A DNA stretch of 64,000 bases. It comes from Nicoliella spurrieriana. Its GTDB lineage: Bacteria > Bacillota > Bacilli > Lactobacillales > Lactobacillaceae. Made by a program: the position numbers and the translations under genes. Below, one piece after another: positions 25,641 through 29,130 of the stretch (position 1 is the first letter of the stretch; every line of letters starts with the position of its first letter). The notes under the pieces were generated by a model, which ran no database searches, was not told where the DNA came from, and saw only the letters and a program-made list of their open reading frames with translations. The stretch lies in assembly GCF_023380205.1 (NCBI RefSeq), contig NZ_CP093361.1, forward strand, positions 310,001-374,000, in the 5' to 3' direction.

Positions 25641-25760
25641 ATTTAATCTTAAAAATTATGCTTACCTAAATTTTTTCTTAATTCATAAGCATTATAAACT
25701 AACTTTTAAATCATTCGGTGTATCATATAGATGGATTATTTAATTGAAAGGATGATTAAG

Positions 25761-27305
25761 ATGAGTGAAAGACAATTAGTAACTGACTACTACTTTAACA
25801 AGGAAGATTATGACACTCAAGATGGTGGCTACGTTCCGTTAGAGGAACCTAATACTCCCCCACAACAATTGAAAATTCCTGAAATTCTTACTCCTGATAA
25901 AGAAACTGATACCGATATGTATTACACGGTAGTTTCACAGACTGGTGAAACCCAACTGCTGCCTGGTAAGAAGACTAAGACCTGGGGTTACAATGCTTCT
26001 TTGCTTGGCAAAACCATTATCTTCAAAAATGGTAAGCACATCCATATTACCCTTAAGAATGAATTGCCCGAGTTAACTACATACCATTGGCATGGGGCAA
26101 TTATTCCTGGAGTTGCGGATGGTGGTTGTCATACCCCCGTTTACCCTGGTGAATCTAGACAAATTGATTTTAACCTTAATCAACCTGCTGCTACCCTTTG
26201 GATGCATGCCCACCCATGTCCTTCCACTGCTGAACAAGTTTGGCATGGATTAGCAACTGCCGTGGTCGTTCAAGATGCAGAAGAGGCTCAATTACCATTA
26301 CCCCGTAACTACGGTGTCGATGATATCCCATTGATTTTACAGGACCGGCGATTCCATGAAGATAACCAATGGGATTATAATGCTGACTATGATCCTGATG
26401 GTGTCATGGGACCCACTCCAATGATTAACGGGACAATTAACCCCTACTTTGATGTAACCACCCAAAAGGTGCGGTTCAGAATTCTAGATGGTGCGAACCG
26501 TCGTGAATGGCGCTTACACTTTAGTGACGACTTAAAATTCACCCAAATCGCCGGTGATAATAGCTTATTACCACACCCAGTCGATTATACTAAGTTATTG
26601 ATTGGCTGTGCTGAACGGATGGAAATTGTCGTTGATTTTGGTCAATATCACCCTGGTGATGAGGTCGTCTTATATTCAGATGATACCCCAATCGTTCACT
26701 TTAGAATCCATGAATTTGCAAAGGATGATTCTAAAATTCCAGAAACGCTTACCACCACACTGCCAGATCCAAAGGTTACCCCTGAGGCCCCTATTCGCAA
26801 GGTTGTAATGTCAGGAATGGATGAATCGGTTGCCATCAATGGGAAAAAATTTGATATGAGCCGTATTGACACGAAGACCAAGTTGAACAATGTTGAATAC
26901 TGGGACGTTACTAATTCAAACGATATGGATGGTGGCATGTTGCACCCTTACCACATGCATGGTTGTGTATTTAAGGTAATTTCAAGAAATGGGAAGGAAC
27001 CTAATCCAAACGAATTAGGCCTTAAGGACACAATTGAAGTGGAACCTGGTGAAACAGTCCGCCTCAAAGTATGGTTCCCATGTATTGGGGTCTTTATGTA
27101 CCACTGCCACATCATTGAACACGAAGATGGTGGAATGATGCTTCAATTAGAAGTTACTGATCCAAAGCATCCAAATGAATTACCACAACCATTGATGGAT
27201 CACCACACATTAATGAGTGCCTTTGCTAAGGAACGTGGTGTTAAGATGGAAGATTTAAATTTAGGTGGCATGGAATCATACCATAAAATGAACATGAAAA
27301 TGTAA
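25761..27305 (+). CDS. Multicopper oxidase (CotA/laccase-like)
   Basis: 514 aa copper enzyme that oxidises phenolics, Mn2+, Cu+ or similar electron donors with O2. The four copper motifs are present: HWHG (109-112), HAH (149-151, WMHAHPCPS), HPYHMHG near residue 390 and the T1/T3 motif YHCHIIEHEDGGMM near 445. No signal peptide is visible, so it should be cytoplasmic unless exported by another route. The tail ends in Met- and His-rich residues (HKMNMKM). ATG 25761 follows AAAGGATG; an upstream in-frame ATG at 25731 lacks a ribosome site. Confidence 0.93.
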   Translation: MSERQLVTDYYFNKEDYDTQDGGYVPLEEPNTPPQQLKIPEILTPDKETDTDMYYTVVSQTGETQLLPGKKTKTWGYNASLLGKTIIFKNGKHIHITLKNELPELTTYHWHGAIIPGVADGGCHTPVYPGESRQIDFNLNQPAATLWMHAHPCPSTAEQVWHGLATAVVVQDAEEAQLPLPRNYGVDDIPLILQDRRFHEDNQWDYNADYDPDGVMGPTPMINGTINPYFDVTTQKVRFRILDGANRREWRLHFSDDLKFTQIAGDNSLLPHPVDYTKLLIGCAERMEIVVDFGQYHPGDEVVLYSDDTPIVHFRIHEFAKDDSKIPETLTTTLPDPKVTPEAPIRKVVMSGMDESVAINGKKFDMSRIDTKTKLNNVEYWDVTNSNDMDGGMLHPYHMHGCVFKVISRNGKEPNPNELGLKDTIEVEPGETVRLKVWFPCIGVFMYHCHIIEHEDGGMMLQLEVTDPKHPNELPQPLMDHHTLMSAFAKERGVKMEDLNLGGMESYHKMNMKM

Positions 27306-27314
27306 TTATTTTAA

Positions 27315-27343
27315 TTGACAATTCATGCGTGATATATTATATT
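27315..27343 (+). promoter_or_regulatory. Strong promoter of an orphan transcription unit
   Basis: TTGACA (27315-27320), 17-nt spacer, TATATT (27338-27343), both close to consensus. It lies just after the multicopper oxidase stop, and no annotated plus-strand gene follows before the terminator at 27804-27840. Confidence 0.6.
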
Positions 27344-27394
27344 AATAATGTATGGTAAATATTATTGAAGATAATTTATTCGGAGGTGAGCAAA

Positions 27395-27493
27395 ATGACA
27401 GAATTAACATTTGATCCTGGAGCGACGAGTGAGTCGATGATGGGAAAATTGACGTCATTTCACAAATCACCAAGGAGCTTTCATGGTAGATAA
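27395..27493 (+). CDS. Micro-ORF, 32 aa, in an orphan transcript
   Basis: ATG 27395 is preceded by a near-ideal Shine-Dalgarno GGAGGTGAG. The peptide starts MTELTFDPGATSESMMGKL and ends HKSPRSFHGR. The reading frame continues after the TAA stop as 13 codons (L-M-T-T-D-F-P...) to the next stop at 27533-27535, as if a longer frame had been interrupted. Its 3' half is also part of a predicted RNA hairpin (27442-27514). It may be a leader peptide, a small protein or the start of a decayed gene. I do not recognise the sequence. Confidence 0.45.
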   Translation: MTELTFDPGATSESMMGKLTSFHKSPRSFHGR

Positions 27494-27803
27494 TTGATGA
27501 CGACCGATTTTCCCGAAAAAAACATTCAATATTAATTGTTTTAATCTAATCAATCTTTCTAGTAAATAGAAAGTAATCATCAAGTAATCGGTGGTTAAAA
27601 CAATCTAGAAGCGTGTAAAATAGGAAAATTAGTTGTTGTTGATTATCTCGGTATCTTCAATTATTCCAGGTATTGACGTACTTATAATTGAAAAGGTAAT
27701 CACGTTGCTTATGATGCTTTACCCTATGGGGAACCATTGGGGGAGGTACTGAACAACAATTTAATTATAGTTAAATTTTAATCTGACATTTGATCTGATA
27801 ATT

Positions 27804-27840
27804 AAAAAGAGCATTCAAATTATTTTGAATGCTCTTTTTT
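27804..27840. terminator. Bidirectional terminator
   Basis: AAAAAGAGCATTCAAA stem with complement and an ATATT-like loop, flanked by A and T runs; shared by the orphan unit (plus) and the symporter gene (minus). Confidence 0.88.
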
Positions 27841-27855
27841 ACGTTCTAATTTAAA

Positions 27856-29130
27856 TTACTTAGCGTTAGGCAGAAATTCTTGAACGTATTGACGCGATTG
27901 TTCAGAATTAAATACCTTTTCAGACTTCCCAATAATCACGGTGGCCAGTGAATTTCCAACTACGTTCACTGCAGTCCGGCCCATATCAACTAATCGATCA
28001 ATTCCAGCAATAAACGCCAGACCATTTACAGGAATCCCAACCGTGGAAACGGTTGCTAGTAATACTACAAATGATGCTCCTGGTACTCCAGCCATTCCCT
28101 TAGAAGTAACGACTAGCACTAGTAAGACCATCACCTGTTGTCCAATTGATAGGTGGATATGATAGGCCTGAGCCATGAAGATAACCGCCAATGACTGATA
28201 GATTGCAGAACCGTCCAAATTAAAAGTATACCCAGTAGGAATTACAAACGAAACGATTGATTTATCAACCCCAAAGCGTTGCATTTTATCAATCAATCTG
28301 GGTAACGTTGCCTCTGAACTAGCGGTCGAAAATGCTAATACAATTTCATCTTTAATCACAAATAACAGATTTTTAAGGCTAAAACCAAAGAGTTTCGCAG
28401 CTAAACCCATAAAGACTAGGATAAAGACGATCATAGTAGCATACGCCAGGAATACAAAGTAACTCAACGGAGCTAATGCACTAACCCCCATTTGGGCAAG
28501 GGTTGCTCCAATCAACGCACAGACCCCAATGGGTGCTAAGCTCATTACCCAGTTGGTTACTTTAAACATTACCTCTGAAACTGAATTCAAGAAGTCAACG
28601 ATGATTTTCCCCTTTTCACCAATTGCTGCGGTTCCTAATCCAAAGAAGACTGAAAATACAATTACCTGCATCATTGCACCATCACTTAAGGATTTAAAAA
28701 TGTTGGTGGGAATTAAATTCATTACAGTTCCCCAACCGCCACTTTCTTTTGCTGCATTAGCAGTGGATACATACTTACTAATATCCTCTCCCTTTAAGGC
28801 ATGAATATTAATAAAATCACCAGGATGGGCTAAATTAGCAACTAATAATCCTAACGCAATTGCAATCGTAGTCATAATTTCAAAATAGAGGATCGTTTTA
28901 CCACCAATCCGGCCTAATTTCTTAATGTCTCCCATGCTTGCAATCCCGACGGTTAAACAGGAAAGCACGATTGGTAGCACAATCATTTGAATTAGGTTAA
29001 TGAACATCGTTCCAATGTTCGACATAGTAGTGATTGCAGTTTTATTTTGATAGAAAATAATCCCCAAAATAATCCCCAATACTAACCCGATCATGATTTG
29101 CCAACCAATCGTTAGTTTAAATCTCTTCAT
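27856..29130 (-). CDS. Dicarboxylate/amino acid:cation symporter (DAACS/GltP family)
   Basis: 424-aa membrane symporter for glutamate, aspartate or C4-dicarboxylates with Na+ or H+. About eight membrane helices with two re-entrant hairpins. The Ser-rich hairpin reads AFSTASSEATLPRL and the helix 7 motif is TGYTFNLDGSAIYQS; VTSKGMAGVPGASFVVL is hairpin 2. All are diagnostic of the family. The N-terminus starts MKRFKLTIGWQIMIGLVLG. Substrate specificity cannot be set from these motifs alone. It is a single gene ending in the terminator shared with the orphan unit. Confidence 0.94.
   Translation of the reverse strand: MKRFKLTIGWQIMIGLVLGIILGIIFYQNKTAITTMSNIGTMFINLIQMIVLPIVLSCLTVGIASMGDIKKLGRIGGKTILYFEIMTTIAIALGLLVANLAHPGDFINIHALKGEDISKYVSTANAAKESGGWGTVMNLIPTNIFKSLSDGAMMQVIVFSVFFGLGTAAIGEKGKIIVDFLNSVSEVMFKVTNWVMSLAPIGVCALIGATLAQMGVSALAPLSYFVFLAYATMIVFILVFMGLAAKLFGFSLKNLLFVIKDEIVLAFSTASSEATLPRLIDKMQRFGVDKSIVSFVIPTGYTFNLDGSAIYQSLAVIFMAQAYHIHLSIGQQVMVLLVLVVTSKGMAGVPGASFVVLLATVSTVGIPVNGLAFIAGIDRLVDMGRTAVNVVGNSLATVIIGKSEKVFNSEQSRQYVQEFLPNAK

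Follow-up and report, generated by a model that had tools for sequence, protein, structure and literature searches.

The locus that separates a multicopper oxidase gene from a convergent symporter gene in Nicoliella spurrieriana belongs, by sequence comparison, to a conserved structured RNA family that lies outside Rfam 15 and occurs in at least seven Lactobacillaceae genera. Within the 64,000-nucleotide stretch analyzed here (the window; contig NZ_CP093361.1, positions 310,001 to 374,000), the locus probably yields a structured RNA that stands by itself and is about 490 nt long, the length of the predicted transcript. The explanation we favor, and consider probable, is that the RNA is an MgtL-like Mg2+ leader-peptide attenuator without its gene, which now exists as a free-standing RNA. 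The fuller description, of an attenuator that has lost its transporter gene, takes its shape from a ribosome on its ORF and acts in trans, in at least seven genera of which three are also gated by a Mg2+ riboswitch, is put forward tentatively.

The upstream flank is the multicopper oxidase gene (25731–27305, forward strand), named by inspection and by a match in the plasmid collection, and the downstream flank is a dicarboxylate/amino-acid symporter gene (27856–29130, reverse strand), named by inspection; all other features given here lie on the forward strand. The preliminary description of this DNA had pointed to a near-consensus promoter, a terminator and the lack of any normal protein between them, and all three were recovered. 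The sigma-70-type promoter TTGACA-17-TATATT is positioned at 27315–27343 and agrees with the consensus at 11 of 12 positions, in a window sequence where matches to the promoter consensus are frequent by chance; both hexamers and their spacing are identical in the congener Sy-1. Comparison of the sequences indicates that this promoter takes the place of the M-box riboswitch leader found in other genera. The intrinsic terminator, recognized from sequence and folding, consists of a 16-bp stem followed by a T-run (about 27804–27839) and is also read by the convergent symporter gene. The fold predicted for the whole transcript has a z score of −5.1 relative to shuffled sequences, and none of 100 shuffles was equally stable. 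Relatives have the genome order zwf-gnd-(mco)-RNA-symporter in common, and no co-directional gene downstream of the RNA is common among them; in the window the next gene is convergent. Searching the plasmid collection with the locus gave matches limited to the multicopper oxidase, and the viral contigs gave no match to it.

A DNA search placed the closest relative in the congener "Lactobacillus sp. Sy-1" (G001, locus L081), which is 86% identical and encodes an identical peptide, and found fragments in two other genera as two blocks, one covering the ORF and hairpin and the other lying downstream. A peptide search together with a DNA pattern extended the family to 51 named loci from Apilactobacillus, Levilactobacillus, Lentilactobacillus, Secundilactobacillus and Philodulcilactobacillus, plus Sy-1 and UBA5807; the pattern required GATCCNGGAGCG, and independent of it are the covariance model of the 5′ part of the RNA (R2) and the distant member G210. 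R2 matches 83 of 399 Lactobacillaceae genomes, one of them falsely (G298, genus g6, where the model matches the beginning of a gene for an NAD-binding-like protein), and found no match outside Lactobacillaceae in an order-wide sample of 247 genomes. Matches to the DNA pattern outside Lactobacillaceae are scattered in taxonomy and were on that ground judged to be due to chance. A true, distant member is G210 (genus g27), with a peptide beginning MNIEYEEPGSHYH, a position between gnd and the symporter, and a 3′ core that is recognized by the corresponding model (R1) at 2e-8. The RNA is present in all sampled members of the well-sampled genera. At gathering score, Rfam 15 gave no match in the window, and a relaxed search yielded only chance hits, mostly on the terminator; in 17 relative loci, Rfam recognized M-box and rRNA only.

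The RNA contains a micro-ORF, MTELTFDPGATSESMMGKLTSFHKSPRSFHGR (27395–27493; 32 aa with stop, ATG at 27395 and TAA at 27491–27493), preceded by the Shine-Dalgarno (SD) sequence GGAGGTG at 27382–27388, which also serves as strand 0 of the switch described below; the strong SD and 32-codon ORF reported previously are thus both present. An SD-like motif precedes the ORF in 51 of 51 named loci, and the family peptide, of 26–33 aa, has the form M(T/A/S)...DPGA(S/C/T/K)...G(K/E). Its (D/E)PG(A/S) motif is found at about codons 7–10 in all named loci and in G210, where it reads EEPGS. In the window, the codons for DPGA form GATCCNGGAGCG (27413–27424), in which N is the Pro wobble base; the remainder is unchanging in the aligned set (alignment A2), so that both RNA and peptide appear to be constrained. 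The distance from ATG to strand 1 of the switch is 44, 47, 50 or 53 nt, all equal modulo 3, and the next stretch follows no such rule. Pooled pN/pS is 0.45 in frame vs 1.11 and 0.64 in the other frames; by genus the ratio is 0.30 in Apilactobacillus and 0.26 in Lentilactobacillus, where the signal stands out clearly, and 0.67 in Levilactobacillus, where it is weak. These comparisons strongly support coding selection on the micro-ORF, with the SD, the ATG and (D/E)PG(A/S) kept, and the ORF is predicted to be translated. The short hydrophobic membrane peptide typical of type I toxin RNAs was not found here, the peptide being hydrophilic by inspection and having no Pfam match.

Three strands form the core of the predicted switch. 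Strand 1 (27442–27473) is inside the ORF; strand 2 (27486–27514) starts near the ORF stop and ends in UUUUCCC; strand 3 (27623–27651) begins 109 nt beyond strand 2 and ends in UCUCGG. Strand 2 can pair with strand 1 to form helix A or, being equally complementary to it, with strand 3 to form helix B, in which 26 pairs are made with 27486–27513. The nested stem at 27442–27514 noted earlier is real and corresponds to helix A, one arm of this two-way switch; its size had been given as 8 plus 6 bp, and the stem is instead made of 10 bp (27442–27451 with 27505–27514) plus an inner 7 bp. In a third arrangement, helix C, the SD and ATG pair with about 27452–27477, part of strand 1, masking the ORF start site. 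Exchange of strands between genera weakens helix A from −29.8 to −18.9 kcal/mol and helix B from −28.3 to −14.6 kcal/mol, while the control pairing of strands 1 and 3 is nearly indifferent (−13.9 own vs −13.0 kcal/mol swapped). By exact permutation, computed from nearest-neighbour energies over about eight lineages that are related to each other, helices A and B each rank first among 40320 arrangements (1/40320) and helix C ranks within the best 2 (2/40320), with the controls matched by 6286 and 19637. The eight lineages include G210, where the GGGAAA/UUUCCC core is wholly replaced. Helices A and B both coevolve in related genomes, and the comparison strongly supports a structure with mutually exclusive A and B helices together with a selected ORF. 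The earlier suggestion that peptide translation and RNA folding could interact is supported as well: changes in the stems are compensatory, indels stay in frame, and the ORF overlaps helices that exclude one another.

Modelling suggests that a ribosome would control the choice between A and B. Whole-RNA folds of the window sequence with helix A (−130.1 kcal/mol) and helix B (−126.0 kcal/mol) differ by 4 kcal/mol, and the modelled fold switches from A to B once strand 1 is masked, as it would be under an elongating ribosome. Two results of the same modelling count against the attenuator-derived explanation: left to itself, the window sequence folds strongly toward helix A (mean P 0.98), and with a ribosome halted at the stop codon helix A would still form.

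Beyond strand 3, two hairpins are conserved. H3 (27658–27690) has the hexaloop UUGACG and a covarying stem in alignment A3, with three of its four inner pairs changing on both sides in 6–13 of 25 sequences. H4 (27717–27746; CUUUACC...GGGGAGG) carries a GNRA tetraloop, GGAA, at 27730–27733, and in A3 combines a covarying upper stem with an invariant closing pair. Both-side changes in H3 and H4 number 67 vs 22.8 after shuffling. The segment 27692–27778, previously read as a protein-like fragment, is non-coding by this comparison and covers the H4 hairpin. A second ORF after H4, considered because GGGGAGG resembles an SD, was rejected since its frame is not kept in Lentilactobacillus. By inspection, other genera have a further 3′ domain after H4 that is missing from the window and from Philodulcilactobacillus; this domain, GAGTAATTATGAG...GTAATTGC, is conserved in the Apilactobacillus loci L022–L036 and L042–L044 and in the Lentilactobacillus loci, and it ends in a GNRA-type hairpin. 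TTTGATCCTGG resembles 16S rRNA in its 5′ end region, a likeness set aside because the flanking sequences are different and relatives are variable at the middle base.

The link to magnesium comes from the relatives. All 15 loci scanned in Lentilactobacillus, Levilactobacillus, Secundilactobacillus and UBA5807 have an M-box riboswitch, scoring 121–146 bits, on the upstream side of the RNA, and coordinates compared by eye show it adjoining the RNA in 32 of 32 sampled genomes of g14, g16 and g21, which were equated with Lentilactobacillus, Levilactobacillus and Secundilactobacillus via shared contig coordinates and peptides. In loci with an M-box, a terminator sits 15–37 nt before the SD, leaving little room for a separate promoter. 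The antiterminator/terminator pairing of the M-box is only slightly affected by swapping (−10.7 own vs −10.0 kcal/mol). No M-box was found at the RNA locus in Apilactobacillus, Philodulcilactobacillus or G210, and at gathering score the family (RF00380) is absent from the window and from the whole window genome; this counts against the favored explanation, and Mg2+ control in the window lineage is proposed from its relatives. A literature search, mostly of openly available papers, found no report of an M-box combined with a leader peptide in lactobacilli.

Sister versions of the module, with an equivalent four-strand arrangement, retain a gene and are predicted to gate its ribosome site. In g13, g11 and g26, the M-box and terminator are followed by a leader ORF of 28–30 aa, and in g13 the leader peptide reads M...KPGAT with the same CCNGGAGCG; R2 finds all four g13 leaders at 20–26 bits, the next hit scoring 10.4. 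The g13 leaders are connected to the RNA family by sequence score, and those of g11 and g26 by layout only. In the sister leaders, strand 2 has two alternative partners, the leader and the SD of the gene that follows, and a helix like C masks the SD of the leader itself; L198 and L192 show a weak 2:3 pairing. The gene behind the leader encodes a truncated P-type ATPase-like protein, with a Cation_ATPase_N match of 6e-7 in g13 and weak matches in g11 and g26. At L183, L197, L198 and L201 (g13), L192 (g11), and L193, L195 and L200 (g26), these ATPase-like proteins have 220–312 aa and no phosphorylation domain. Full MgtA is encoded in g15, g5, g31, g54 and G026, close behind an M-box where coordinates were compared; none of 16 sampled genomes carrying the orphan RNA has an MgtA above the TIGR01524 cut-off. 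We read these arrangements as a series from M-box-mgtA, through M-box-leader-truncated gene and M-box-RNA, to the RNA with its own promoter in the window, and suggest that it would run in that direction.

The favored explanation predicts that the leader ORF with its acidic-Pro-Gly motif is translated and that ribosome progress along it sets the shape of the RNA. Between the end of DPGA and strand 1 lie about 14–23 nt, a spacing at which most of strand 1 should stay free when a ribosome is at the motif; following a poor start, or stalling or drop-off at the motif, this free strand would pair with strand 2 (helix A) or with the ORF start site (helix C). A ribosome that has passed the motif should cover strand 1, and by running over it would release strand 2 to pair with strand 3 (helix B). 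The module would descend from a Mg2+-transporter leader, and since an M-box and terminator precede the RNA in three genera, the RNA should be made at low Mg2+; the window lineage would also have lost the M-box and come to use an ordinary promoter. The output would be the RNA itself, probably strand 3 with H3 and H4, most likely acting in trans in Mg2+ homeostasis, a trans-acting RNA being preferred because there is no gene downstream and the 3′ structure is conserved.

The RNA shares several features with MgtL and CorL, the leaders of mgtA and corA in Salmonella and E. coli, in which acidic and Pro codons cause poor elongation and ribosome drop-off at low Mg2+, selecting between exclusive helices (PMC11282234, PMC11552253). 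It likewise has a short ORF, predicted to be translated, in which an acidic-Pro motif comes early, helices that exclude each other and involve the ORF, and a proposed link to Mg2+ transport. It differs in having no downstream transporter gene in cis, the sister form with its truncated ATPase-like gene coming closest; in M-box rather than PhoP control among relatives; and in that the sister version gates a ribosome site and not a Rho terminator. The motif itself counts against the comparison, as MgtL has EPDP whereas the window DPGA contains a single acidic residue and the motif of the g13 leaders is KPGA. The M-box (ykoK, RF00380) directly precedes the RNA in the three genera named above and in UBA5807, yet the RNA itself is no M-box, and the riboswitch output there is an RNA with a micro-ORF instead of a transporter gene. 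Riboswitch and terminator control of a regulatory RNA in place of a protein gene has been described for Rli55 and AspocR of Listeria; these differ in responding to B12 and not Mg2+, Rli55 sequesters a protein, and the passages on them report no translated ORF switch (PMC8079631).

Having its own promoter and terminator and a conserved ORF and structure, the window RNA also resembles dual-function small RNAs. RNAIII and SR1 are examples of this class, in which a structured transcript with its own promoter and terminator carries a short conserved ORF. Unlike these, the window RNA has an unrelated, hydrophilic peptide, no known pairing target and a proposed lineage from an attenuator. The family adds an uncatalogued RNA family to Lactobacillaceae genera of food and bees. 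It also offers a series whose steps can be traced: an operon leader (M-box with leader ORF and Mg2+ ATPase), a leader in front of a truncated ATPase-like gene, and a gene-less RNA. This makes the origin of new bacterial regulatory RNAs directly testable and may show a control switch turned free-standing RNA. Should the ribosome-gated switch act in trans, the RNA would be a regulator with a direct readout of translation.

The main rival to a trans-acting RNA output takes the micropeptide as the product: the peptide would be a small regulator produced when Mg2+ is low, and the RNA structure (helix C and the A/B switch) would only tune its translation and stability. Enterobacteria make the small regulators MgtS and MgtR at low Mg2+. 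Strong conservation of the ORF, the conservative exchanges seen in G210 (D to E, A to S) and the masking of the start site by helix C fit this proposal; we nevertheless regard it as unlikely, given that conservation does not extend to the C-terminal half of the peptide, that the GAT, GGA and GCG codons are fixed in the aligned set, so that nucleotides are selected too, and that about 350 nt with covarying structure extend beyond the stop, exceeding the needs of translation control. An improbable proposal is that the locus is a cis element in which read-through or antisense transcription from the RNA governs the dicarboxylate symporter gene that converges on it. Most genera keep the RNA syntenic with the symporter, and a terminator common to both would suit this proposal, but A. 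kunkeei, S. collinoides, L. kisonensis and L. kribbianus keep the RNA with no convergent symporter found adjacent. The preliminary description had left the choice between a new small-RNA/small-protein locus, which the compensatory changes, in-frame indels and exclusive helices uphold, and a recently decayed protein gene that kept its promoter, SD and terminator, which, despite the interrupted frame and the promoter-like and terminator signals at both ends, is very hard to credit for a locus conserved with its ORF and covariation across at least seven genera, showing in-frame indels, and universal in those well sampled. A distant version of gene loss may still be true on the comparative evidence, because other genera have a leader of this kind in front of a truncated Mg2+-ATPase-like gene.

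Several M-box loci showed further features. In L175–L177 and L185 (g15) and L174 (g31), the gap from the M-box to full-length mgtA is about 300–700 nt, and some g15 and g31 leaders contain short ORFs with an acidic N terminus (MDDGHSPREF..., MDDSSPQKEG...) that could be MgtL-like. The Levilactobacillus locus L166 (G106) has a second M-box, at about 1790–1953, before an ABC-transporter-like permease gene that is a possible Mg2+-regulated importer. At L190 (g18), an M-box and terminator are followed by an ORF beginning MTDTSNPSSSSND, several hundred nt without a recognized gene and a terminator-like hairpin, perhaps another orphan version.
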